Positions 21,511 to 33,555 of a stretch of DNA of 64,000 bases are shown piece after piece. This DNA is from Deltaproteobacteria bacterium. GTDB taxonomy: Bacteria; Desulfobacterota; Desulfobulbia; Desulfobulbales; Desulfurivibrionaceae. Below the pieces are notes generated by a model. That model made no database searches. It was not told the DNA's origin and saw nothing but the letters and a program-made list of their open reading frames with translations. The number at the start of each line of letters is the position of its first letter. Position 1 is the stretch's first letter. Location: contig DUZW01000010.1 in the NCBI GenBank assembly GCA_013349295.1, forward strand, positions 1-64,000, in the 5' to 3' direction. Both the position numbers and the translations under genes were made by a program.

Positions 21511-22482
21511 ATGATAATCACTTGCCCTCATTGCAAAAAACAGCACAATATCGATGAAAAAAGAATCCCGCCCAATGTCAAGATGGCTCGTTGCCAAGGC
21601 TGCGGGCAACAGTTTCCCCTCGATATTCCCCGGGCGGAATCGCCGGCACCTCCCCCGCCGCAATCCGCCACGGTCGAGGCCGCTCCCGCCCCTGTTCCCA
21701 CTCCCGCGACTCCGTCCAGCCAGGAAACCAGAAGAATCGGCGTCTCTTTGAGCAAGGGGGGGGTCGGCAAGACCACAACCGCGGTGAATCTCGCGGCAGG
21801 ACTCGCCCTGGCGGGGAAAAAGGTTCTCTTGGTTGATACCGACACCCAGGGACAATCGAGCTTCATGCTGGGCGTAAAACCCAAGGGCGGCCTTACCGAA
21901 CTGGTGACCGGAGAACTCCCCCCCCAAGAAGCAATTATTCAGGCCCGCAAAAACCTGTGGATCCTGGCTGGAGGCAAATCCCTGGCCGGCCTCAAGCGCC
22001 TTATCGACCGCAAGGATTACGGCGGCGAGCTGACCATTGCCCAGGCCCTGACCCCGCTTGAAAAAAACTATGATTATGTGGTGGTGGACACCTCGCCGGG
22101 CTGGGATCCGCTCACCGTCAATGTTCTTTTTTATGTCAACGAGCTGATGACCCCCGTCTCCTTGGAGGTCATGTCCATCCAAGGATTTGGCGAGTTCCTG
22201 AAAAGCATCGCCTCCATCCAGAAATTCCGCAAGGAGATCGAACTCCGATACATCCTGCCCACCTTCCGCGACATGCGGGTGAAGCGCGGGAGCGAGTTTC
22301 TGGGGGAGATTGAAAAAATATACGGGGAGAAGGTCTGCGCTCCAATCCGTTACAACGTCCGTTTATCCGAGGCACCTGCCTATGGTCAGACTATTTTTGA
22401 GTTTGCCCCCGGATCCAACGGCGCCCAGGACTACCGTGAACTTGTCCGCAAAGTCACGGGCGAACCGGATCTTTTCACCTGA
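21511..22482 (+). CDS. ParA-family ATPase with N-terminal zinc-ribbon (MJ0042-type) domain
   Basis: 323 residues. Residues 1-38 form a CPHCKK...CQGCGQQF zinc ribbon of the MJ0042 type. A Pro/Ala/Thr-rich linker follows, then a ParA/Soj ATPase with deviant Walker A SKGGVGKTTTAVNL, switch VDTDTQGQSS and Walker B VVVDTSPGWDPL. Such ATPases position plasmids, chromosomes, chemoreceptor clusters or other cargo. The zinc ribbon on a ParA is unusual. The preceding RHH-like gene and PilZ gene suggest a cargo other than the replication origin; this is inference. Confidence 0.88.
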   Translation: MIITCPHCKKQHNIDEKRIPPNVKMARCQGCGQQFPLDIPRAESPAPPPPQSATVEAAPAPVPTPATPSSQETRRIGVSLSKGGVGKTTTAVNLAAGLALAGKKVLLVDTDTQGQSSFMLGVKPKGGLTELVTGELPPQEAIIQARKNLWILAGGKSLAGLKRLIDRKDYGGELTIAQALTPLEKNYDYVVVDTSPGWDPLTVNVLFYVNELMTPVSLEVMSIQGFGEFLKSIASIQKFRKEIELRYILPTFRDMRVKRGSEFLGEIEKIYGEKVCAPIRYNVRLSEAPAYGQTIFEFAPGSNGAQDYRELVRKVTGEPDLFT

Positions 22483-22515
22483 CCCGCTCCATGCCGCGGA
22501 CTAACACCACGAAAT

Positions 22516-22562
22516 CGAACTGTTCAACAAAGCCGGAGAGGTGCTGGTGCTGAACAGCTACG
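22516..22562. repeat. Inverted-repeat element, short copy E
   Basis: CGAACTGTTCA ... TGCTGAACAGCTACG carries the ends of the 106-bp element with most of the middle missing. It shares the flank ACCACGAAAT on its left with copy A. It lies between parA and the next gene. Confidence 0.6.
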
Positions 22563-22575
22563 AGAGACGCTGCCC

Positions 22576-23067
22576 ATGACCTTTGAAAGCAAGCTGATTC
22601 CCATCCTACGCGAGGGAGTTGAGATCGTAAAAATGATTTCTTTTAAGAAATTAAAAGAAGCGCTGATACTGAAACACCCAGACCGTGAGGGTCCCTTCAT
22701 CGCCAAACTTGCCGGAGCGCTGATCAATGCAATCTTCGGCACTCCAGCCCTTGAGGAACCTTTCGTTGTTTTCGCCCGGAGCCATGCGAAGCTCATTGCC
22801 CAGGAACAGGCCCAGCTCGGGGCCATGCTTGAGGAGTTGCGGATTCCTCTCACCGATGCCCTGCGCATCCAAGCCCTCTGCGACCACCAGGAAGGACTGG
22901 ACAGCACCGCCACCCTCCGGCAGGCGCAAGAGCAAGGAATTCTTCTGGCTGATCGTGACCTGCCGCTTCCCCACCGCTTCATCGAGCTGGTCCGCAGACT
23001 GGGCAGCGGATTTGGCTTGCTGCTGCCGCCGCTCCCCGCAACCGACAACGGGGCCGCAACACATTAA
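22576..23067 (+). CDS. Unknown protein, 163 residues
   Basis: No family recognised. Largely helical and soluble: FKKLKEALILKHPDREGPF, an Ala/Gly-rich middle (IAKLAGALINAIFGTP), and a long helical stretch (HAKLIAQEQAQLGAMLEEL, ALRIQALCDHQEGLDS). A C-terminal hydrophobic patch (LGSGFGLLLPPLP) is too short for a membrane span. It may belong to the parA run upstream but is separated by 93 bases holding a repeat. It converges with the response-regulator gene, stop to stop 9 bases. Confidence 0.6.
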   Translation: MTFESKLIPILREGVEIVKMISFKKLKEALILKHPDREGPFIAKLAGALINAIFGTPALEEPFVVFARSHAKLIAQEQAQLGAMLEELRIPLTDALRIQALCDHQEGLDSTATLRQAQEQGILLADRDLPLPHRFIELVRRLGSGFGLLLPPLPATDNGAATH

Positions 23068-23076
23068 ATTCTGCCG

Positions 23077-24441
23077 TCAACTCTCAAGTTCGTATTTCTT
23101 GATTTTGCGCCAGAGAGAAACCCGGTCAATGCCCAGAACCTGGGCGGCCAGACTCTTGTTGTCCCCGTGCTCCTTCAATACCCACTCGATATAGGCCCGT
23201 TCCTGATCGGCAAGACTGGGAATTCCGCCGCTTTTCCGACGGAAGGTTTGAAAACAGGCACCGCGCAGGTCTTCCGGCAGATGCCCGACCTCTATGGTGT
23301 CACCGCTGGCCAGAGCCACCCCGCGCTCGATAATGTTTTCCAACTCACGGACATTGCCCGGAAAATCATAGCGCAGCAGAATATCAACCACCTCCGGCTC
23401 GATATTCCGCACCTCCTTATGCATCAACACCCCGTATTTTCTGATAAAATGCTGAACCAGCAGGGGCAGGTCATCCTTGCGCTCCGCCAGGGGCGGGATA
23501 TGGAGCGCCACCACGTTGATCCGGAAAAAGAGATCCTGGCGAAAATTCCCCAGCTTTACCTCCTCCGCCAGATTCCGGTTGGTTGCCGCAAGAAAGCGAA
23601 CATTGACCTTGACCGGCGAAACCCCACCTAAATGCATCACCTCTTTTTCCTGGATTACCCGGAGGAGTTTTACCTGCATGGCAGGCGACATCTCGGTGAT
23701 CTCATCAAGAAAAAGGGTGCCGCCATCGGCCATTTCCACCAGCCCCTTTTTCATCTCCACCGCCCCGGTATAGGCCCCCTTTTCATGACCGAATAGTTCA
23801 TTGGCCAACAAGTCCTCTTGAAAGGCCCCACAATTCACAGACAAGAGAGGTCCGTTGCGGCGATTGCTGCTGGCATGGACAAATCGGGCCAGCAACTCCT
23901 TGCCCGTGCCCGACTCTCCGCAGATCACAACATTGCTGTCCGAGGTGGCGACCTGTCCGGCCGTGGCAAGCAGTTTTTTCATCCCCGGGTTATCGGTGAT
24001 GATCCTGGCTTCCCCCTGAAATGCTTTAAGATGCTCCCGCAACCTGCTGTTTTCCCGCTTAAGCCTGGTTTTCTCCAGGGCTTCCCGCACAACCTTCCGG
24101 ACCTCATCCAGCTTGTAGGGCTTGGCAATATAGTGATAGGCCCCGCCCTTCATCGCCTCAATGGCGGAATCCACCGTGGCGTATCCGGTGATCATGATCA
24201 CCTCGGTGTCGGGATAAAGCTCGCGAGTACGCTTCAGGATCTGCATACCGCCTACCTTTTCCATCTTCAGATCGGTCAGGACAAGATCGAAGGTATTCGA
24301 CTCCAACAGATGAAGAGCCCTGGGGCCACTCTGGGAGGCAGTGACCTCGTAGCCCTCTTTTTTTAAAACATGCCTGAGGTTGTGCAGGGCTATTTCTTCG
24401 TCGTCAACGACCAATATCCTTGCGGGCTGCTCGTCATTCAT
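23077..24441 (-). CDS. Sigma-54-dependent response regulator (NtrC family)
   Basis: 454 residues. Receiver domain at 1-120 (ILVVDDEEIAL, LVLTDLKME with the phospho-Asp, MITGYATVDSAIEAMK). AAA+ domain at about 140-370 with Walker A GESGTGKE, the sigma-54 contact loop GAYTGA (GAFTGA variant), and DEITEMSPAMQVKLLRV. A Fis-type helix-turn-helix ends the protein (LAAQVLGIDRVSLWRKIKKY). The start at ATG 24441 has AAGGA eight bases upstream and overlaps the kinase stop (ATGAATGA). It is the cognate regulator of the kinase and the probable activator of the divergent promoter at 26144. Confidence 0.95.
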   Translation of the reverse strand: MNDEQPARILVVDDEEIALHNLRHVLKKEGYEVTASQSGPRALHLLESNTFDLVLTDLKMEKVGGMQILKRTRELYPDTEVIMITGYATVDSAIEAMKGGAYHYIAKPYKLDEVRKVVREALEKTRLKRENSRLREHLKAFQGEARIITDNPGMKKLLATAGQVATSDSNVVICGESGTGKELLARFVHASSNRRNGPLLSVNCGAFQEDLLANELFGHEKGAYTGAVEMKKGLVEMADGGTLFLDEITEMSPAMQVKLLRVIQEKEVMHLGGVSPVKVNVRFLAATNRNLAEEVKLGNFRQDLFFRINVVALHIPPLAERKDDLPLLVQHFIRKYGVLMHKEVRNIEPEVVDILLRYDFPGNVRELENIIERGVALASGDTIEVGHLPEDLRGACFQTFRRKSGGIPSLADQERAYIEWVLKEHGDNKSLAAQVLGIDRVSLWRKIKKYELES

Positions 24442-25891
24442 ACCCATGTTCCTTTTGCTCTCCCGGGAGCCAGATAATGAAGGTGGTGCCGAGGCCTGGC
24501 CTGCTTTCCACAGTGATGGACCCGCCATGCCACTCGATTATGTCATGAACAATAAACAATCCGAGTCCGGAGCCCTTGCCCACATCCTTGGTGGTGAAAA
24601 ACGGATCAAAGATTTTCTTAACATGTTCCGCATCAATCCCCGGCCCGTCATCCTCGATGATGATTTCAACCTCATCAAGCTCGGTGCCGCACCCCGTGCC
24701 ACGAGCGGAAATCCAGATATGCCCGTGGCCCTGCACTGCATCGATTGCATTCTTGATCAGGTTGAGCAGCACCTGTTGCATCCGCTGCTTATCGACAATA
24801 ATGGGAAGATCGTGGGGGATGTCCACGGCAATTGCCACTTCGCTGGGCGCATGCCCGCGAAGGAGCAGAATTGTTTCATTCACCAGCTTCCGGAGAAGCA
24901 GCTTCTCCTTGCTGAATTCCTTGATTCTGGAAAATTCCAACAGGGTTCGGACGATATCCCTTGCCTTGTCCGACTGGGTTTCAATCTGGCCGATGAGATT
25001 TTTCTTGAACTCCACATTATCCTCTTCAATCTCCTCGCCGAGAATCTGGGCCGAGGTGGAGATGTTGGACAGAGGATTGTTCAACTCATGGGCCACGCCT
25101 GAAAGCAGGGTCCCCAGCGCAGCCAATTTTTCCGATTGCACCAACTGATGCTGACGCATCTGCAATTCCTTGGTCATTCGGTTAAATGCCGTGAGCAGCG
25201 AACGGATCTCCTGCTCGCCTTCCCCAACGGCAACCTCGACAAAATCGCCATGGGAAATCCTCTTGGTGTATCCCTCCAGCACCTTGAGAGAGTTCACCAC
25301 CTTCCTCCCCAGCAGGGCGGCAATAGTCAGGGCGGAAACAAACATGCAGAGCATGGAAGCAAGGAGAATGCTCTGGGTCGTTTTCAGGAGGGTCTTGATT
25401 TTCTTCTTTACGGCATCCCGGGTTTTTTCACCAAACTCGGTGAGTTCCTTCCCTGCGTGCCGGACCTGCTCTTCCAGCCGCTCCTGAACGTGGAAATCGC
25501 TTGCGCCGCCGCCCGCGACCCCAAGGTCATATGCGTGCAACTGCCCCATGAACCCTTCGTAGGCCTCAATCACCTTCGCCAACTGCCGGATCTCGACGGA
25601 AGAGAGCACCATATGGAGAGCCGGCTCATTATTCTCAAAGAGATCCCTGGTTTTTTCCCAGTAAAACTGATTTTCCAGAAAATCCTTTTCCTGGCGGTAG
25701 AGAAAGTAATTCTTCTCGAACCTGCGCAGCTCAAGAGCCGTATTAAAAAAATCCTCAATGACCTCGCCGAAGGCAACCTGGTCTTCCACCCGCTTGACAA
25801 TGCCATAGGTCAGCACGGCGGAGCCCATCATGAGGATGAGCAACAGATAAAAGCCGTAGGTAATCTTCTTGCGTATGCCGAGATGGAACAT
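24434..25891 (-). CDS. Membrane sensor histidine kinase, partner of the 23077 regulator
   Basis: 485 residues. First membrane helix at about 10-32 (KKITYGFYLLLILMMGSAV), then a helical sensor region (RFEKNYFLYRQEKDFLENQFYW, four-helix-bundle type). A second helix lies at about 170-195, a HAMP domain follows (VLEGYTKRISHGDFVE), then HisKA with GVAHELNNPLSNI (phospho-His) and a HATPase with N box LLNLIKNAID, DDGPGIDAEH and GKGSGLGLFIV. AAGGAAGAG precedes the ATG. The ligand is unknown. It is co-transcribed with the sigma-54 activator and divergent from the FAEA/TauE/Usp operon, so that operon is the probable output. Confidence 0.94.
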   Translation of the reverse strand: MFHLGIRKKITYGFYLLLILMMGSAVLTYGIVKRVEDQVAFGEVIEDFFNTALELRRFEKNYFLYRQEKDFLENQFYWEKTRDLFENNEPALHMVLSSVEIRQLAKVIEAYEGFMGQLHAYDLGVAGGGASDFHVQERLEEQVRHAGKELTEFGEKTRDAVKKKIKTLLKTTQSILLASMLCMFVSALTIAALLGRKVVNSLKVLEGYTKRISHGDFVEVAVGEGEQEIRSLLTAFNRMTKELQMRQHQLVQSEKLAALGTLLSGVAHELNNPLSNISTSAQILGEEIEEDNVEFKKNLIGQIETQSDKARDIVRTLLEFSRIKEFSKEKLLLRKLVNETILLLRGHAPSEVAIAVDIPHDLPIIVDKQRMQQVLLNLIKNAIDAVQGHGHIWISARGTGCGTELDEVEIIIEDDGPGIDAEHVKKIFDPFFTTKDVGKGSGLGLFIVHDIIEWHGGSITVESRPGLGTTFIIWLPGEQKEHGYE

Positions 25892-25972
25892 GCTCTCTCT
25901 TCCTTAATCCTGCAAAGGTACCGATTTCCTTTTCGAAAGCACCATACTCCCAGTCAAAAACAAAGTCCAGAG

Positions 25973-26068
25973 GTTGCATTTGGCAACACCATTTTTCTCG
26001 TTGCAACACCATATCATCTTATTGTTTTTATTATGTATTATTTTATTTGGAAAATTTGCGTTGCAAAC
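25973..26068. promoter_or_regulatory. Three GTTGC/GCAAC inverted repeats, candidate activator sites
   Basis: GTTGCATTTGGCAAC (25973-25987), GTTGCAAC (26000-26007, followed like the first by ACACC) and TTTGCGTTGCAAA (26055-26067) lie about 190, 167 and 109 bases upstream of the expected start site of the sigma-54 promoter. Spacing and symmetry fit enhancer sites for a dimeric NtrC-type activator, most simply the neighbour encoded at 23077. The rest of the 340-base gap (25892-26231) is AT-rich without other signals. Confidence 0.6.
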
Positions 26069-26143
26069 TGAAACATTAAGCCCTGCCGACCAAGCTAGAA
26101 GTAACATCTTGAAATAACAAGAGAAAAATCCAAGCCACACACC

Positions 26144-26159
26144 TGGCATACTTGTTGCT
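26144..26159 (+). promoter_or_regulatory. Sigma-54 (-24/-12) promoter
   Basis: TGGCATACTTGTTGCT matches TGGCAC-N5-TTGCW with the exact spacing and a single deviation. The transcript would begin near 26170 and cover the gene at 26232 and those downstream. Confidence 0.85.
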
Positions 26160-26231
26160 TAATGAAACAAACAAGAACGACAAGCCTTCACCCTGTTTCA
26201 TAGCAACATACACATACGAAGGAGAACCACC

Positions 26232-26411
26232 ATGAACACAATCCTGAACCGCTTTGACCGCCTGATGATGGCAGTAACCTTTGCCGAGGCCAACGAACCC
26301 GAACTGGCACACAAATGTATCGGCAGCCGGAAACAAGAGCCGGCCAAGCAGCTGCAGCAAAATGCCAAGATCACCGCCGGCCGAATCCTGCCGAACCAAA
26401 CCGCACGCTGA
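26232..26411 (+). CDS. FAEA-motif small protein 1, 59 residues
   Basis: Missed by the ORF track because of its length. It reads MNTILNRFDRLMMAVTFAEA and ends RILPNQTAR, with ribosome-binding AAGGAG seven bases before the ATG. Its residues 8-27 (FD..M.AVTFAEANEPELA) recur at the N-termini of the next two genes. There is no domain beyond the motif; the tail is polar and basic. It is the first gene after the sigma-54 promoter. Function unknown; it may be a minimal form of the shared domain. Confidence 0.8.
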   Translation: MNTILNRFDRLMMAVTFAEANEPELAHKCIGSRKQEPAKQLQQNAKITAGRILPNQTAR

Positions 26412-26426
26412 TCATTGGAACGCCCC

Positions 26427-26951
26427 ATGAGCGCCCTGACGACCCTATTCAAAAAACTTGAAGAATCCATGACAGCTGCAACCTTTGCCGAGGCCGGCGA
26501 GTTCGAGACGGCCCGCCAGTTCCTCAAGTCAAATAAGAATGCGCACAAACGGGTACTCTTAGGAACCGACAAACCCGAGATCGAACCCAGAACAATCAGC
26601 TACGCCCTGCACCTCTGTCAGCGCTTGGGCGGCGGCCTGGAAATTTTCCATATGCTGCGCATGGCGGAAAATGAAACCAATCCCGGGTTGAGCCAGGAAG
26701 AAAAACCCCTCGCCGCCCTGAATGCCGCCCTTGAACCAAAAGGCGTTGTCTACCAGCCGGTCAGCGGCCCCGGCTGTCTGGCCGACGAAGTACTCCGGCA
26801 TGCAGGTGGCCGCCGGGATATCCTCTGCGTTGTCTTCGACACCCTGGAACCGGAAGGCACGACTTGCCGCAAGGCAAAAGAAAACATGATCGCAAGACTT
26901 CAGGCGCTGCACTGCCCCGTCGTGATGTACGCCGGGGCGGCCAGAACCTGA
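26427..26951 (+). CDS. FAEA-motif protein 2 with Usp-like domain
   Basis: 174 residues from ATG 26427 (the track start is a TTG four codons earlier). Residues 1-35 hold the shared motif (MTAATFAEAGEFETARQFL). The rest resembles a universal-stress-protein Rossmann-type domain: KRVLLGTDKPEIEPRTISY, LGGGLEIFHML, RDILCVVFDTLEPEG, LHCPVVMYAG. The GxxGx9G(S/T) ATP-binding loop of true Usp proteins is absent, so nucleotide binding is doubtful. It lies 15 bases after gene 1, within the same operon. Confidence 0.78.
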   Translation: MSALTTLFKKLEESMTAATFAEAGEFETARQFLKSNKNAHKRVLLGTDKPEIEPRTISYALHLCQRLGGGLEIFHMLRMAENETNPGLSQEEKPLAALNAALEPKGVVYQPVSGPGCLADEVLRHAGGRRDILCVVFDTLEPEGTTCRKAKENMIARLQALHCPVVMYAGAART

Positions 26952-26987
26952 GACATTTAACAAACTCAGATCAATAAGGGAGAAAAA

Positions 26988-27335
26988 ATGAGCATCACCA
27001 CCTTTGACAAAAACATGTCGGCCGTCGCCTTTGCCGAGGCAGGCGAACACGACACCGCCCGCCGGATCCTCGGCGAAAACGCCAAAAAGCAGTACGGGAA
27101 AGCCCCGGCTCCGGCGGCAAAAAGCAAGCCCTACCTGAAGACCATCATCTTCGGTACCATTTCGCTTTCCGCCTACTACATGCTTTTCACCAACGAAAAG
27201 CTGGTTACCGACACCTTCACCATGGGCGGTTGGCACTGGATATACCCTGTTGGCGCGGCATTCTTCTTCTCTTTCACCCATGGGGCCTTTGCCAGCAATC
27301 TGCTGAGCACCCTCGGCATTGAAGCAAAAAAATAA
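26988..27335 (+). CDS. FAEA-motif protein 3, membrane protein
   Basis: 115 residues. The N-terminal FAEA motif is present (FDKNMSAVAFAEAGEHDTAR), followed by a basic Ala/Pro/Lys linker (KAPAPAAKSKP). Two hydrophobic segments come next: TIIFGTISLSAYYMLF and WIYPVGAAFFFSFTHGAFASNLL. The soluble motif would sit on the cytosolic side. A good ribosome-binding site (AAGGGAG) precedes the ATG. It immediately precedes the TauE/SafE permease gene (39 bases), so it may be an accessory subunit of that transporter; this is inferred from position and topology. Confidence 0.8.
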   Translation: MSITTFDKNMSAVAFAEAGEHDTARRILGENAKKQYGKAPAPAAKSKPYLKTIIFGTISLSAYYMLFTNEKLVTDTFTMGGWHWIYPVGAAFFFSFTHGAFASNLLSTLGIEAKK

Positions 27336-27374
27336 ATCAGCCGCGCCGGCTTGACAAAAGGAGATATACCTACA

Positions 27375-28709
27375 ATGAAGAAGTTACTGATTATACTCAT
27401 GTTCGCCCTTGTTCCCCTGTCCCTGCTCGCCCAATCGGCCCTGGCCGCTGGCGGCCCCCCGACGGATATTCTCAAAGGGGTTATTACCGAAGTGAATGAA
27501 GCGGACCGCACCATTGTCTTCCAGAAACATGAAAACAAGGAATTCATGACCCTCACTCTTGGCGCTGATATGAAGCCCGAGGAGATGCGGATGAACAAAA
27601 AGGTCCTGATCAGCCTGGATAAAAATGCCGGGGAAAATGTGATGAAGGATGTCTCCATCATGTTCATGGACATGACCGCCAGCAAACTCCTGGCCCTGCT
27701 CGTCATCGGTCTGATTGGCGGCTTGCTCTCCGGCTTCATCGGCTCCGGCGGCGCCTTTGTCATGACCCCGGCCATGATGTCCCTGGGCGTCCCCGGCGCC
27801 GTAGCCGTAGCCAGCAACATGTGTCACAAGTTCCCCAAGGCCATGATCGGTGCCTACAAGCGGTGGAAATACGGACAGGCTGACATCAAGCTCGGTCTGG
27901 TCATGGCCACCACCGCCGTCCTCGGCGTACAGATCGGGATCATGATCCAGAAATCAATCCTGAACTCTTTTGGCAATGCCGGTTCAAACCTCTATGTTTC
28001 CACGATTTTCATGATTGTTCTCGTTTTTGTCGGCGGCTATGTCTTCTATGATGCATGGAAACTCGCCAAGGGCGACGGCAAAGAGACCGTAAGCAAACTG
28101 GCCGTACGCATGCAGAAGATTCAGCTTGCACCCATGATGCACTTCAAAACCGCCAAAGTGACCATCTCCGCCTGGATCACCATCCCGGTCGGCCTGTTCA
28201 CCGGCATGCTCGCAGCCACTATCGCGGTGGGCGGCTTCATCGGCGTTCCCGGCATGATCTATGTAATCGGCGCCTCCGCCGTGGTGGCCAGCGCCACCGA
28301 GTTGATCATCGCCTTTGTCATGGGCGCTTGGGGTTCCGTACAGTGGGGTCTCTCCGGCCTTATCGATATCCGCCTCTCCCTGCTGCTTCTGGCCACCTCC
28401 CTCATCGGCGTACAGCTTGGCGCCTTGGGTACCACCTATGTCAAGGACTACATCATCAAAGTGGTCATGGCCACCACCATGCTCATCGTTGCCGTAAGCC
28501 GCGGCGCCAAGATTCCCGGCTACCTGGCCGATCTTGACCTGATGACCCCGATGAGCGATCCCATTCACGCCCTGCTTGAAAGCGTCAGCTTCTGGGCACT
28601 GGTAACCGCCCTCGGCTCCGCCGGTCTCATCATCACCGTAGCCATGGTGAAGGGGATGTCCGCCGACCGCGATGCCAAAAAAGCCCTTGCCGGAGTCAAC
28701 CATGGCTAA
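27375..28709 (+). CDS. TauE/SafE-family permease with secreted N-terminal domain
   Basis: 444 residues. A signal peptide (MKKLLIILMFALVPLSLLAQ, cut near ALA-AGG) leads to a periplasmic beta-rich domain at about 25-105 (GVITEVNEADRTIVFQK, KKVLISLDKNAGENV). The TauE/SafE body follows with eight or so helices and its two repeated motifs: GLLSGFIGSGGAFVMTPAMM and GMLAATIAVGGFIGVPGMI. The family exports or imports sulfite, sulfoacetate, thiosulfate and other small sulfur-containing or organic anions. The extra periplasmic domain is not usual. GGAGATATACC precedes the ATG. It overlaps the Usp gene by 8 bases. Confidence 0.9.
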   Translation: MKKLLIILMFALVPLSLLAQSALAAGGPPTDILKGVITEVNEADRTIVFQKHENKEFMTLTLGADMKPEEMRMNKKVLISLDKNAGENVMKDVSIMFMDMTASKLLALLVIGLIGGLLSGFIGSGGAFVMTPAMMSLGVPGAVAVASNMCHKFPKAMIGAYKRWKYGQADIKLGLVMATTAVLGVQIGIMIQKSILNSFGNAGSNLYVSTIFMIVLVFVGGYVFYDAWKLAKGDGKETVSKLAVRMQKIQLAPMMHFKTAKVTISAWITIPVGLFTGMLAATIAVGGFIGVPGMIYVIGASAVVASATELIIAFVMGAWGSVQWGLSGLIDIRLSLLLLATSLIGVQLGALGTTYVKDYIIKVVMATTMLIVAVSRGAKIPGYLADLDLMTPMSDPIHALLESVSFWALVTALGSAGLIITVAMVKGMSADRDAKKALAGVNHG

Positions 28710-29559
28710 ATACCGAAAGATCCTCGTTGCCTACGACGGTTCCCCTTCGGCCAAAAGCGCACTCTCCCTGGCAAGCCAGCTTGCCAGGGAGGACAAGAGC
28801 TGGATCAAGGTTCTGGCCGTTGTGCCGCCCTACCAGGGGGACTTGGAACTTATCGGGGTTTCGGATATCAAAGAAACCATTACCGGACCCGGCCAGAATC
28901 TGCTGGCCGAAGCCCGAGAGCTGGCGGACCGCGAAGGGGTAAACATCCTGACCAATCTGGAACAGGGTGAACCCTATGAGCAGATTGTCCATGTCGCCGA
29001 GGAAGAAAACTGCGATCTCATCGTCATGGGCCGCAGGGGCAAAGGCTCGGTGGAGCGGGAACTCATGGGCAGCGTGACCGCCCGAGTCATCGGACATACC
29101 CGCAAGGATGTCCTAGTCATCCCGGAAAACGGCCAGCTCTCCTGGGAGAATGTCCTGCTGGCCACGGACGGTTCAACCTGTTGCGACAATGCCCTGGCCA
29201 GAGCCCTGGAGATAGCCCAGGAACGAAAGGCAAAACTCTCAGCGGTTTCCGTGGTCTACACCAATGATGAGTTTTACGCCCTCGGTCAGGAAGTCGTGAA
29301 GGAACTTTACCGGGATGCGGACAAGGTTCTCGACAAGGTAAAAAAATGGGCCGGGGATCTCGGGGTGAAAGCGGAACTGTTTGTGCGGGATGGCGAGCCC
29401 CATCAGGCCATCACCGCCATGGCGTCGGAAATCTCCGCCAGCCTTATCGTCATGGGTTCCCATGGCAGGAAAGGCTTGACCCGCCTGCTCATGGGCAGCG
29501 TCACCGAAAGGGTTATCGGCTATGCAGACTGCCCGGTCCTGATCTGCCACCTGTCGTAA
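28702..29559 (+). CDS. Tandem universal stress protein (two Usp domains)
   Basis: 285 residues. Domain 1 (residues 1-145: KYRKILVAYDGSPSAKSAL ... GRRGKGSVERELMGSVTARV) and domain 2 (150-285: NVLLATDGSTCCDNAL ... GSHGRKGLTRLLMGSVTERV) both carry the GxxGx9GS ATP-binding loop. The ATG at 28702 overlaps the permease stop by 8 bases. The stop TAA (29557-29559) is the beginning of repeat copy B, so the present C-terminus was set by that element. Last gene of the sigma-54 operon. Confidence 0.95.
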   Translation: MAKYRKILVAYDGSPSAKSALSLASQLAREDKSWIKVLAVVPPYQGDLELIGVSDIKETITGPGQNLLAEARELADREGVNILTNLEQGEPYEQIVHVAEEENCDLIVMGRRGKGSVERELMGSVTARVIGHTRKDVLVIPENGQLSWENVLLATDGSTCCDNALARALEIAQERKAKLSAVSVVYTNDEFYALGQEVVKELYRDADKVLDKVKKWAGDLGVKAELFVRDGEPHQAITAMASEISASLIVMGSHGRKGLTRLLMGSVTERVIGYADCPVLICHLS

Positions 29560-29661
29560 CGGTCCAGCAGCACCGCATCTGCGTTGTCATCGGTCGGCTC
29601 GTGTGCAACAGCACACTTCGCCGACCTCTTCCTAGCAGCCACGGTGCTGCTGAACCGTTAC
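29556..29661. repeat. 106-bp inverted-repeat element, copy B (full length)
   Basis: GTAACGGTCCAGCAGCACCG at the left end pairs with CGGTGCTGCTGAACCGTTAC at the right (19 of 20 bases). The reverse complement aligns with copy C along its whole length, including the central GTGTGC-TGTT-GCACAC hairpin. The left end overlaps the final codon and stop of the tandem Usp gene. Confidence 0.87.
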
Positions 29662-29709
29662 GTTTCTTTATTTTTTCCAATTTTCGGCTCTGTGCTGGAT
29701 GGTTACCGC

Positions 29710-29740
29710 ACGGGCGCTCATTCGAACGCCCGTTTTTTTT
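29710..29740 (+). terminator. Rho-independent terminator after the sigma-54 operon
   Basis: ACGGGCG, a ten-base loop, CGCCCGT, then eight T residues. It lies 150 bases after the Usp stop, just past repeat copy B, and would end the operon transcript before the radical SAM gene. Confidence 0.9.
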
Positions 29741-29809
29741 CAGCCATGGTCCCTCGCCTCGCTCTATTGACCATGGCATTCCCGCACCTATTCGGGTATC
29801 TTCACTGCC

Positions 29810-31321
29810 ATGCTCCTCATCCATCCCCCTGCCGCCAAAGCCTGCGAACCTCCAGCCGGGATTGCCCGTCTGGCCGGAGCCATCCGTGGCCACGGCCTGC
29901 CCTGCACCCTGCTGGACGCCAACCTTGAAGGCCAGATGTTTTTGCTCGCCGACCCACCCCCCGGTGCGGACACTTGGAGCATTCGCGCCGGCAAGAATCT
30001 CAACGATAATCTTGCGGCCTTACGCACTCAGGAGCTGTACCGAAACCCTTCCCGCTACCGGCGGGCAGTGGCGGATGTAAACCGGATGCTTGAACAGACC
30101 GGCCGGAGCCACCATCTGTCCCTCAGCCTTGCCAACTATCAGGAACAGGGCCTTTCTCCCTTGAGCAGCGCAGACCTCCTCCAGATAGCCGAAAACCCCG
30201 AGGCCAACATCTTTTTCCCCTATTTCTCGGCCCGGCTCCCCTGTCTTATCGAAGAGACCCGACCTGCCCTCATCGGCATCTCCCTGAACTACCTGAGCCA
30301 GGCTGCCACCACCTTTGCCATGATCGGCTTTCTCAAAAAACGCTATCCGGGACTGCCGATTGCAATAGGCGGCGGCCTGGCCACCTCCTGGCTGCGCAAC
30401 CCCGCCTGGCGCGACCCATTTGCCGGACTTATCGACCATTGCCTTGCCGGACCCGGCGAAGAAGCGCTGATCCGCCTCCTTTCCGGCGATTTTTCACCGC
30501 ACCACCAAACGCCTTCATATTCCGGCCTGCCACTGACCGACTATCTGGCCCCCGGCCTTATCCTGCCCTACGCCGCCTCCTCGGGCTGCTACTGGAACAA
30601 CTGCCTGTTCTGCCCGGAAAAGGCCGAAGGCAACCCGTACCGCCAGATTCCCCCGGCCACGGTACTGGCGGATATCGCCAGCCTGAAAGCCGCCACCAGC
30701 CCAGCCCTCCTCCATTTTCTCGACAATGCGGTGAGCCCGGCCCTGATGCAGGCCCTGGCTGCCGACCCGCCGGGCCTCGATTGGTACGGCTTTGCCCGGA
30801 TCAGCCCCCAGCTGGCCGAGGCCGATTTCTGCCGGGCCCTGCGCCGATCCGGCTGCCGGATGTTGAAACTCGGCCTTGAGTCCGGCGATCAGTCCGTTTT
30901 AGACGCTATGAACAAGGGACAGGATCTGGCCCTGATCGAAAATGTTCTCCACACTTTGGCCGAGGCCGGAATCGCCACATACATCTATCTGCTGTTCGGC
31001 ACCCCCTCGGAATCACTTGCCGAAGCGCGCCGGACCTTTGACTTCGTGGTCCGGCATCATTCAGCCATCACCTTTCTCAATCTGGCCGTGTTCAACATGC
31101 CGATCGGCAGCCCGGAAGCGCCCACGGTTTTGCGCAGCGAGTTTTACGGGGGAGACCTTTCCCTGTACACCGATTTCGAGCATCCGAAAGGCTGGTCACG
31201 CAAGGAAATCCGGAGGTTTCTCGGCCAGGAGTTCAAACGTCATCCGGCCATTGCCCGGATCCTCCACCGCGACCCGCCGCTTTTCACCTCAAACCATGCC
31301 GCCTTTTTCTGCCAGACCTGA
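29810..31321 (+). CDS. Radical SAM protein of the B12-binding type
   Basis: 503 residues. The N-terminal part (1-190) resembles a cobalamin-binding Rossmann domain (MLLIHPPAAKACEPPAGIAR, PALIGISLNYLSQAAT, LPIAIGGGLATSWL), though no clear DxHxxG ligand is seen. The radical SAM half starts with SSGCYWNNCLFCPEKA, a CX4CX2C cluster motif as found in some B12-radical SAM families rather than CX3CX2C. It continues with LKLGLESGDQSVLDAMNKG and a TIM-barrel pattern. The substrate is unknown. A terminator lies upstream, so it is a separate transcript from the sigma-54 operon. Confidence 0.87.
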   Translation: MLLIHPPAAKACEPPAGIARLAGAIRGHGLPCTLLDANLEGQMFLLADPPPGADTWSIRAGKNLNDNLAALRTQELYRNPSRYRRAVADVNRMLEQTGRSHHLSLSLANYQEQGLSPLSSADLLQIAENPEANIFFPYFSARLPCLIEETRPALIGISLNYLSQAATTFAMIGFLKKRYPGLPIAIGGGLATSWLRNPAWRDPFAGLIDHCLAGPGEEALIRLLSGDFSPHHQTPSYSGLPLTDYLAPGLILPYAASSGCYWNNCLFCPEKAEGNPYRQIPPATVLADIASLKAATSPALLHFLDNAVSPALMQALAADPPGLDWYGFARISPQLAEADFCRALRRSGCRMLKLGLESGDQSVLDAMNKGQDLALIENVLHTLAEAGIATYIYLLFGTPSESLAEARRTFDFVVRHHSAITFLNLAVFNMPIGSPEAPTVLRSEFYGGDLSLYTDFEHPKGWSRKEIRRFLGQEFKRHPAIARILHRDPPLFTSNHAAFFCQT

Positions 31322-31474
31322 AGTACTCCACCGGTCCGCCGGCCCCTTATTTTTTTTACTTTGACAAAATCTCCGGCGATTACCGATAATGATCACAAGA
31401 CACCGGCCTTGCCGGACCGGAAAAACCCAGCCGCTGGTCCTGTTCACACACATCAGAGAGGGGAGGTTGTTATT

Positions 31475-31897
31475 ATGTATAAAAAAATAATGGTTGGCTA
31501 TGATGGGACAAAATTCAGTGATTGCGCGCTAAAGGAGGCGATTGCCCTGGCAAAGGAATCCGGCGCCAAACTCCTTGTGGTGACCGCGCCGGAAATAAAT
31601 GTCGAACTCCAGGCCATGGCGCCGGAGGCGAATGAGATGATGGAAAAAAAGGCCCGTGGAGATCTGGATCTCGCCGCGAAAAAGGTAGAAGATGCCGGAC
31701 TTTCCTGTGAAACCAAAATCATCCTCGCGACCTCAGCCCAGGAGGCGCTGGTGGAAACAGCCCAAAAGACCAAGACCGACCTGATCGTGCTCGGCACCCA
31801 TGGCCGCAGCGGACTCATACGGCTGCTCATGGGCAGCACGACAGCGCGGGTCATCGGCCATGCACCCTGCAATGTACTGGTGGTGCGCTGCAAGTAG
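31475..31897 (+). CDS. Single-domain universal stress protein
   Basis: 140 residues from ATG 31475 with GGGAGG upstream; the longer ORF start is unsupported. Complete Usp fold: MYKKIMVGYDGTKFSDCAL, VETAQKTKTDLIVLGTHG, and ATP loop GRSGLIRLLMGSTTARV. Third Usp-type protein within 5 kb. It converges with nikO, 57 bases between the ends. Confidence 0.95.
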   Translation: MYKKIMVGYDGTKFSDCALKEAIALAKESGAKLLVVTAPEINVELQAMAPEANEMMEKKARGDLDLAAKKVEDAGLSCETKIILATSAQEALVETAQKTKTDLIVLGTHGRSGLIRLLMGSTTARVIGHAPCNVLVVRCK

Positions 31898-31954
31898 ATC
31901 GTTGCCCCTTTTCGTCTACAAACTGCCCCTTTCGGAGGGGAGGCTCTGGCCGTG

Positions 31955-31997
31955 CTAACTGTTCAGCAGTGCTGCAGATGCGGTGCTGTTGAACGAT
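31955..31997. repeat. Inverted-repeat element, shortened copy D
   Basis: CTAACTGTTCAGCAGTGCTG joined almost directly to CGGTGCTGTTGAACGA, that is the two ends of the 106-bp element without its middle. It encodes the end of NikO on the minus strand (SFNSTASAALLNS and the TAG stop). Confidence 0.7.
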
Positions 31998-32746
31998 TTT
32001 CCACTGCAAATCGGACAGCCCTGCATGGCAAAAGGCTTTTCCAACCGGCAGGCGGCAAGCAACGCTTCATCCCGGAAAATCTCGTAAGTCGGACCATCGG
32101 CCCTTACCTCCCCCTCGTGCAGGACGATGGTCCGCTCGCACAGCTCCAAAACCATATCCAGATCATGACTGGTAAAGATCCTGGTATGATGAAAGTCTTT
32201 CAACAGCCCCATGAGCTGTCGCCGGGCAAAAGGATCAAGCCCGCTGGTCGGCTCATCCATGACCAGGATGTCCGGCGACATGGCCAAGACCGTGGCAATG
32301 GCCACCCGTTTCTTTTCTCCGCCGGAGAGGTGGTAGGGCGGCTTGTCGCGCAGATGTTCGGCCCCTACCCTGGCCAAGGCGCCCCGCACCCGCTCTTCCA
32401 CCTCAGCCCCGGACAAACCAAGATTCAGCGGGCCAAAGGCCACATCGTCAAAAACAGTGGGCATGAACAGCTGGTCGTCCGGATCCTGAAAAACCATCCC
32501 CACCGTACGCCGGATCTCGGGCAGGGTGGCGGTGGTCAGGGGAAAATCGCCGATGCGGATCGCGCCCTGGCTGGTTGCAAGATAGCCGTTCAAATGAAGT
32601 AGCAGGGTGGATTTCCCCGCGCCGTTGGCGCCGATGATCGCCACCGATTCTCCATGGGTAATCCGGAAGGAGACACCCCGCAACGCCTCGGTTCCATCGG
32701 AATAGACATGACGCAGATCCTTGACCTCGACAATATGATGGCTCAT
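31955..32746 (-). CDS. nikO: ECF-type nickel/cobalt transporter ATPase NikO (CbiO-like)
   Basis: 263 residues from MSHHIVEVKDLRHVYSDG. Walker A GANGAGKST, Q loop VFQDPDDQLFMPTVFDDVAF, signature HLSGGEKKRVAIA, Walker B ILVMDEPTSGLDP and switch His (TSHDLDMVLEL) are all intact. The start overlaps the nikQ stop. The last 13 codons and stop derive from repeat copy D and have no family character. Nickel rather than cobalt is favoured by the divergent nikR. Confidence 0.94.
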   Translation of the reverse strand: MSHHIVEVKDLRHVYSDGTEALRGVSFRITHGESVAIIGANGAGKSTLLLHLNGYLATSQGAIRIGDFPLTTATLPEIRRTVGMVFQDPDDQLFMPTVFDDVAFGPLNLGLSGAEVEERVRGALARVGAEHLRDKPPYHLSGGEKKRVAIATVLAMSPDILVMDEPTSGLDPFARRQLMGLLKDFHHTRIFTSHDLDMVLELCERTIVLHEGEVRADGPTYEIFRDEALLAACRLEKPFAMQGCPICSGKSFNSTASAALLNS

Positions 32747-33555
32747 CAAAACTCCCCGGTGACGATCGTCCCCAGCAACTGGGAAACATTGAACAAACGG
32801 AACACCAAAAACAACCCGGACCATCCCGCAACGAAAAGAACCTCTTTGCCCCCGAACCGGGTTGTCCGGCGCGGGTGGAACTCCCCGGTAAAGCCCCTGG
32901 CCAGCATGGCAAGATGGATCCGCTCCGCCCGCAACCAGGTGCGGAGCAGAAGGTGACTGAGCAACGAGCCGTAGGAGCGCCACCCCAGCCCTTTCTTGCC
33001 AAAAGCGCGGAGGTCCCGAGCTCGGGCCGTGCGGCTGCCTTCTTCGATAAGCACGAAAAGATAACGGTAGAGAAAAAGAAGCTGTACGGTAAAAATCCGT
33101 GGCATGCCCAACTGGTCAAGGGCCTGACAGATCGCGGGAAATCCGGTTATGCCGACCAGGATAAGGGCGGCGCCGACCGTAAGGGTCGCCCGGACCAGAA
33201 TGGAGGCGCAAGAAAGCCAACCACCGCTGATCCCGATAGGGCCGAGACGAACCAAAACCGTCTGATCAAAAAGGGGATTGAACATGCCCACCATCAGGGC
33301 AAAGGGCAGGACCAACACAACCTTTTTGGCGATATGGCGAACCGGAAGGTTGCCAAGCGCCATGATCACCGCCGGGTAGAGAAAAAAAGGAAACAGGGCG
33401 GCCAGTTCGTACTTGCCCAAAGAAACCACGGTCAGGATAAAGCCCAGGGTCACCAGCACCTTGGCCCTGGCATCGAGCCGATGCATGCCCGTCTCTCCGG
33501 TGGCCAGCAAGTCAAGCCGCCTGAAGTCATTTACTGCTCCGACAATGGAGGCCAT
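32746..33555 (-). CDS. nikQ: ECF-type transporter T component NikQ (CbiQ-like)
   Basis: 269 residues, about six membrane helices. The coupling-helix motif is in IHLAMLARGFTGEFHP, matching the Ala-Arg-Gly signature of CbiQ/EcfT proteins that contact the ATPase. HRLDARAKVLVTLGFILTV is the conserved N-terminal part. The start at MASIVGAVNDFRRL is chosen over a 17-codon extension. It overlaps nikO at its end, and nikMN is upstream by 83 bases. Confidence 0.93.
   Translation of the reverse strand: MASIVGAVNDFRRLDLLATGETGMHRLDARAKVLVTLGFILTVVSLGKYELAALFPFFLYPAVIMALGNLPVRHIAKKVVLVLPFALMVGMFNPLFDQTVLVRLGPIGISGGWLSCASILVRATLTVGAALILVGITGFPAICQALDQLGMPRIFTVQLLFLYRYLFVLIEEGSRTARARDLRAFGKKGLGWRSYGSLLSHLLLRTWLRAERIHLAMLARGFTGEFHPRRTTRFGGKEVLFVAGWSGLFLVFRLFNVSQLLGTIVTGEF

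Follow-up and report, generated by a model that had tools for sequence, protein, structure and literature searches.

A small FAEA module shared by differing proteins of an anion permease operon, with a probable gathering role

Organisation of the operon and its regulatory region

The window, meaning the whole 64,000-nucleotide stretch of DNA that was analysed, carries three consecutive genes (ORF1, ORF2 and ORF3) followed by those of a TauE/SafE (TSUP) permease and a tandem-Usp protein, with a sensor histidine kinase and an NtrC-type regulator encoded divergently (Table 1). The permease possesses a signal-peptide-like N-terminus and an extra domain of ~80 amino acids ahead of its TauE domain. 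It is a clear member of the TSUP/TauE-SafE family (PF01925), to which the operon adds a two-helix partner, Usp and module-bearing proteins. The tandem-Usp gene, whose start overlaps the permease stop, does not encode the module described below. For the NtrC-type regulator, whose ORF was listed as 23077-24528, an internal ATG at ~24447 is the more likely start. A single Usp-like gene (31475-31897) is located ~2 kb downstream of the operon and is preceded by a 503-aa ORF (29810-31321) with a cysteine-rich CxxxxxCxxC stretch.

The palindrome upstream of ORF1 and the further upstream GTTGCAA sites are conserved in 11 genomes and are probably sites of the NtrC-type regulator. No Rfam family was matched in positions 22000-33000 of the window.

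Table 1. Features of the module-bearing operon and its flanking regulatory genes (positions in the window)
Feature	Position	Strand	Description	Basis
NtrC-family sigma-54 response regulator	23077-24447	-	REC-AAA-Fis; divergent from ORF1 operon	Pfam
Sensor histidine kinase	24434-25891	-	Membrane protein, HAMP-HisKA-HATPase; divergent from ORF1 operon	Pfam
Palindrome GTTGCATTTGGCAAC	25973-25987	.	Candidate enhancer/NtrC-type regulator site	Invariant core in 11 genomes
GTTGCAAC	26000-26007	.	Second candidate enhancer site	Conserved across the same 11-genome comparison
GTTGCAAA	26060-26067	.	Third candidate enhancer site	Conserved GTTGCAA-type site
Sigma-54 promoter TGGCATACTTGTTGCT	26144-26159	+	Sole zero-mismatch site in window	Kept across genus
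ORF1	26232-26411	+	59 aa, motif-only microprotein, MNTILNRFDRLMMAVTFAEANEPELAHK...NQTAR	RBS/frame conservation, dN/dS
FAEA module copy 1 (in ORF1)	26232-26333	+		Family profile match, E 2.8e-18
ORF2	26427-26951	+	174 aa, degenerate Usp fold, N-terminal module	Pfam, AF2, Foldseek
FAEA module copy 2 (in ORF2)	26436-26540	+	AF2 helices 3-17, 24-35	Family profile
ORF3	26988-27335	+	115 aa: N-terminal module, basic linker, two predicted membrane helices (48-68, 88-108)	
FAEA module copy 3 (in ORF3)	26988-27083	+	AF2 helices 5-17, 21-28	Family profile
TauE/SafE (TSUP) permease	27375-28709	+	TauE domain at residues 108-374	Pfam TauE (PF01925), 2.1e-34
Tandem-Usp protein	28702-29559	+	Canonical Usp, two stretches	Pfam Usp, 2.4e-63

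A module common to ORF1, ORF2 and ORF3

It had been proposed from the sequence that three consecutive proteins of different architecture share an N-terminal FAEA motif, and both the ORFs and their alignment confirm this. The pattern [FLW][DE]xx[MF]xA[AVI][TA]FAEAGE[HFW][DE]TA[RK]x[IM]L is N-proximal in all three, with residues A14, F17, A18, E19, A20, E22 and A26 (ORF1 numbering) invariant. The starts given in the original prediction (MMAV.., MTAA.. and MSAV..) are internal methionines; start conservation in relatives places the true starts 9-14 residues upstream (MNTILNRFDRL-M, MSALTTLFKKLEES-M and MSITTFDKN-M for ORF1, ORF2 and ORF3), so that the module takes in an earlier [FL][DE] helix turn, ~10-15 residues from the N-terminus.

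A 34-residue query matched the 2.9-Mb genome in three places only (E 9e-18 for itself, 1e-3 and 2e-2), the module of this genome being found only in ORF1, ORF2 and ORF3. The family profile scores these copies at E 2.8e-18 to 4.4e-17, and the module was absent from 40 random 12-kb loci of related genomes. Chance likeness is excluded by the genome-unique matches, the profile E-values and the motif-free control loci taken together.

ORF1 is a coding gene under purifying selection across the genus, as judged by comparison of its sequences. In 11 genomes its AGGAG ribosome-binding site, its start codon and its reading frame are all conserved. Its dN/dS in the genus comparison is 0.30 for the whole gene and 0.12 in the half that holds the motif, so that this 59-residue protein, which is almost motif alone, comes from a real gene. 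In some ORF1 homologues (L033, L035 and L039) the first helix of the module is kept and the second lost, indicating that the full hairpin is not always needed. The window's ORF1 ends in NQTAR and its relatives in NQTAH. One ORF1 paralogue (L073:5332-5577, genome G008) stands alone, away from any permease operon, and is preceded by a perfect sigma-54 promoter of its own.

Distribution and protein architectures

Searches with a module profile covered 198 genomes of the class and 394 genomes sampled from the phylum. The module was identified in 52 of the former and 48 of the latter (60 with a broader profile). It is present in most genomes of the genus to which the window belongs, and many of these have at least six copies, whereas some genomes hold a single copy. 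The consensus of 133 non-redundant copies is [FLWI]-[ED]-x-x-[MF]-x-A-[AVI]-[TA]-F-A-E-A-G-E-[HFW]-[ED]-T-A-[RK]-x-[IM]-[LM], with conservation of 100% for A1, 97% for A9, 96% for F0, 95% for A-3 and 93% for E2, which is more than a helical fold by itself would require.

When 122 module proteins from the collected loci were classified with the motif masked, 60 showed no other recognised domain (most being <130 aa, and 18 having two or three copies), 28 possessed a receiver domain with the module at the C-terminus, and 23 were Usp-like with one to three N-terminal copies. A further six were Usp-like with the module inserted at approximately residues 61-85, and five were two-helix membrane proteins with the module N-terminal. 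In L092 and L110 ('LLEVATLAEAGSYEG') an apparent fusion of the module to a permease N-terminus was rejected, its profile score being ~0 and shuffles reaching 9.6.

A sister operon, absent from the assembly of the window's genome, encodes two module-bearing receivers, a tandem-module protein and kinases (L071, L077, L079, L081, L082, L084 and L088). It usually has a TauE- or DASS-type permease, and its tandem-module protein often ends like DFLxSLGLxGIRMTYGV.

No entry for the module was found in Pfam, NCBIfam or the PDB. The strings FAEAGE, TFAEAG and AFAEAG were not found in the literature searched, nor was any paper naming the module. The shared tag thus appears to be new, while the regulatory system surrounding it is known in part.

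Genomic context of the module

Gene content was compared between 49 loci chosen solely for the presence of the motif and 40 arbitrary 12-kb control loci of related genomes. A TauE or DASS permease was present in 36/49 module loci versus 1/40 controls (Fisher 1e-12), and a permease or a receiver-Lon (a Lon protease with an inserted receiver domain) in 42/49 versus 3/40 (Fisher 2e-14), these p-values being too small because related genomes are non-independent, while the loci still span many families. Histidine kinases (40/49 versus 6/40), NtrC-type regulators (32/49 versus 4/40) and receiver-Lon on its own (18/49 versus 2/40) were likewise more frequent in module loci. A perfect sigma-54 promoter lies within 400 nt upstream in 27 of 59 module gene clusters, with shuffles giving ~0. 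The module is thus confined to permease, two-component and receiver-Lon loci under sigma-54 control, and the random scatter that was to refute a shared domain is not seen.

Predicted structure and relation to TPR

The expectation that the three proteins would show a common fold in these residues held at modest confidence: a helix-turn-helix is predicted in both ORF2 and ORF3 (AF2 pLDDT about 54-72 over the module, from shallow alignments). According to these models the module is probably a helical hairpin. Together with the very different architectures in which it occurs and its confinement to particular loci, this upholds the view of a small, separable module of ~30 residues. A PDB search gave no significant match of the module to solved structures.

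The predicted hairpin resembles that of TPR in its helix-turn-helix, and to some degree in a small/aromatic/small pattern in register and in tandem copies that are often 34 aa apart. Conserved module residues map to TPR positions 8, 11, 15, 20 and 24, and an hhalign comparison with the TPR consensus sets the motif over TPR 10-22, in the register that these positions predict (P 0.002, outscoring all 300 shuffles), at a probability of only 13%. Spacing in tandem copies is 34 in 8 of 26 pairs, which is the mode, and ranges from 31 to 53 in the others. In contrast to TPR, the module is mostly single and 25-30 aa long, has a fixed FAEAGE core and lacks W4/P32. Proteins carry mostly one copy and at most three, rather than the three or more repeats that form a TPR superhelix. 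Pfam TPR matches (E 0.02-0.09) all fall below threshold, the best being TPR_4 in a tandem-module protein (E 0.022, 15.8 bits against a cutoff of 27), with single modules weaker. The module is therefore TPR-like in register and is not a Pfam TPR.

ORF2 and ORF3

ORF2 had been described as Usp-like, and this identity holds on fold, although its Pfam Usp score (17.0 bits) is below the gathering cutoff of 24. AF2 predicts a Usp domain with strands and helices from residue 42 on (mean pLDDT 71.7), and Foldseek matched it to Usp structures, five chains of which reach E<=1e-3 with a TM of about 0.42-0.54; 4wny and 3hgm are among the matches. Inspection of the ORF2 sequence showed the canonical G-2X-G-9X-G(S/T) nucleotide motif to be absent. 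The Usp-fold protein TeaD is associated with the TeaABC transporter and probably acts on it. ORF2 matches TeaD by Foldseek (PDB 3hgm, E 5e-4), yet differs from it in possessing the extra N-terminal module and in lacking the canonical nucleotide-binding motif.

For ORF3, AF2 predicts two long helices in addition to those of the module at a low pLDDT of 55, and the positive-inside rule would give it an N-in/C-in topology. Relatives exist in which the two-helix protein has no module (L039, L096, L105 and L142) and a motif-only ORF is present in the same operon, which suggests that the module may be supplied in cis or in trans.

Receiver-Lon and the three-component system of D. vulgaris

In receiver-Lon the receiver lies between the N-part and the AAA+ domain (Pfam Response_reg 121-229, AAA 248-383 and Lon_C 468-669). 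It was identified in ~84 of the 198 class genomes (including L083:2795-4810) and falls into two clades. The clade closest to the query comprises 17 class genomes, all of which carry the module (17/17; Fisher 1.4e-11, with kinship ignored), and in most of them a motif-only gene is nearby and divergent. The second clade, of ~67 genomes, is mostly without the module. Of 18 motif-only proteins with an [NQS]RPxLRV-like C-terminal tail, 15 lie within 4 kb of receiver-Lon; the pattern was set after the sequences had been viewed, which makes the p-value of this association no more than indicative. Such a tail is possibly a Lon signal. Tail-bearing microproteins of this kind occur in L078, L080, L083, L085-L087, L131, L133, L134, L136, L137, L142 and others. 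Close to receiver-Lon of the second clade (L125, L126 and L138), small proteins that lack the module have similar ends (RPRIHA, RPRMRA and RPALRR).

In the window's genome (88% complete) no receiver-Lon was found, only four ordinary Lons, and most of the genus also lacks it; receiver-Lon was therefore rejected as an obligatory partner of the module. The 17/17 co-occurrence and the presence of the module without receiver-Lon in this genome indicate that the two belong to the same regulatory world and are separable.

A 'three-component system' has been described in D. vulgaris (Rajeev 2011, PMC3333781). It comprises the kinase DVU3304, the regulator DVU3305 and, in DVU3303, a response regulator that carries a Lon protease. 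The membrane proteins and UspA-type proteins DVU3298-3302 are under its control, and several stresses induce it. A 2015 study of the sigma-54 regulome reports that the system is sigma-54-dependent (PMC4641369), and a 2023 transposon-library study gives a cofitness of >0.9 for DVU3303-3305 and presents DVU3299 as a putative anion transporter that is important under chlorate (PMC10102598). The module is not mentioned for DVU3298-3305 in the available portions of these three papers. As far as these sources describe it, the D. vulgaris locus resembles the window, which also has a sensor kinase and an NtrC-type sigma-54 regulator beside an operon of Usp, membrane and anion-transporter genes. In the window the kinase and NtrC-type regulator are linked and a sigma-54 promoter lies on the operon. 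The window's genome differs from D. vulgaris in lacking receiver-Lon, which its relatives have.

Proposed role of the module and alternative explanations

We consider the chances about even that this is a small helical docking module which brings Usp, receiver and membrane-anchor proteins together at the permease. It would consist of an amphipathic helix and the invariant FAEAG turn, in most cases followed by another short helix, with a register like that of TPR, and sigma-54/NtrC-controlled anion-permease operons would attach it to their non-transport parts. On firing of the kinase and NtrC-type regulator, ORF1, ORF2 and ORF3 would be produced together with the TauE permease. ORF3 would present its module at the cytosolic face, and the modules of ORF1 and ORF2 would bind either this same surface or one another. 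In this way the Usp-like ORF2 protein would be set on the permease to gate transport, as TeaD would be for TeaABC, and motif-only ORF1 may serve as a bridge, a filler or a competitor tuning occupancy. In the sister operons the module carries receiver domains, and phosphorylation could therefore switch docking. The occurrence of the module in five settings, its strict residue conservation, its confined loci, the sigma-54 sites, the predicted helix-turn-helix, the possible supply in cis or trans and the commonest tandem spacing of 34 residues speak for docking; the modest AF2 pLDDT, the one-helix ORF1 homologues and the single-copy genomes speak against it. An obligate single complex of ORF1, ORF2 and ORF3 is partly contradicted by the single-copy genomes and by the relatives with a module-free two-helix protein.

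The best rival to docking, albeit an unlikely one, is a proteolysis handle, in which the module, or a motif-only protein acting as adaptor, would deliver the proteins that carry the tag (Usp-like, receiver and anchor) to Lon; in many genomes the receiver inserted before AAA+ would place turnover under the control of phosphorylation. The constant presence of the module in one receiver-Lon clade with a motif-only gene mostly adjoining, the tails near receiver-Lon and the work of DVU3303 with DVU3304/3305 (PMC3333781; PMC10102598) are consistent with this. However, the window's genome keeps three copies of the module without receiver-Lon, the ORF1 copy being under purifying selection, and the second receiver-Lon clade is mostly module-free. 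It is a little less probable again that single TPR-like hairpins of different operon proteins stack as an intermolecular array with no special permease contact: fused tandem copies with a commonest period equal to that of TPR, the register match and the weak Pfam TPR scores agree with such homotypic assembly, but there is no significant Pfam or PDB match, spacing is variable and one-copy genomes exist.

Tethering of the proteins to the inner membrane by the amphipathic first helix is improbable. This helix is the best conserved and is retained where the second is lost, as membrane association would have it; yet ORF3 is a membrane protein in any case, the pattern of the invariant A-E-A-G core is specific and not that of just any basic amphipathic helix, and the module is also found internally and at the C-terminus of proteins. 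That all three copies lie in one operon could also reflect a recent duplication of a single N-terminus that left the copies without a function in common, a neutral sharing of gene ends to which we attach hardly any weight, as it is refuted by phylum-wide conservation in unrelated contexts and positions and by the dN/dS over the motif half of ORF1.

Implications for the phylum

Docking at the permease may be part of a wider scheme, which we put forward tentatively and hold to be somewhat short of an even chance: a phylum-wide 'operon glue', in which an exchangeable helical tag on Usp proteins, receivers, a membrane anchor and microproteins would have these assemble on stress-regulated anion permeases, controlled in many species by a phosphorylation-regulated Lon with a C-terminal tail signal of its own. 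In many sulfur-cycling bacteria the module is attached to differing proteins of stress-controlled anion-transporter operons, where it probably has a gathering role. Its sequence can serve to pick out uncharacterised members among the Usp-like proteins, receivers and microproteins of the phylum, and it ties these to anion permeases and to a known but unexplained stress system of kinase, regulator and receiver-Lon. Genes of ~55 codons, which are easily missed in annotation, are conserved parts of this system, and the module makes the binding partners of operon Usp proteins and of orphan receivers a testable question.
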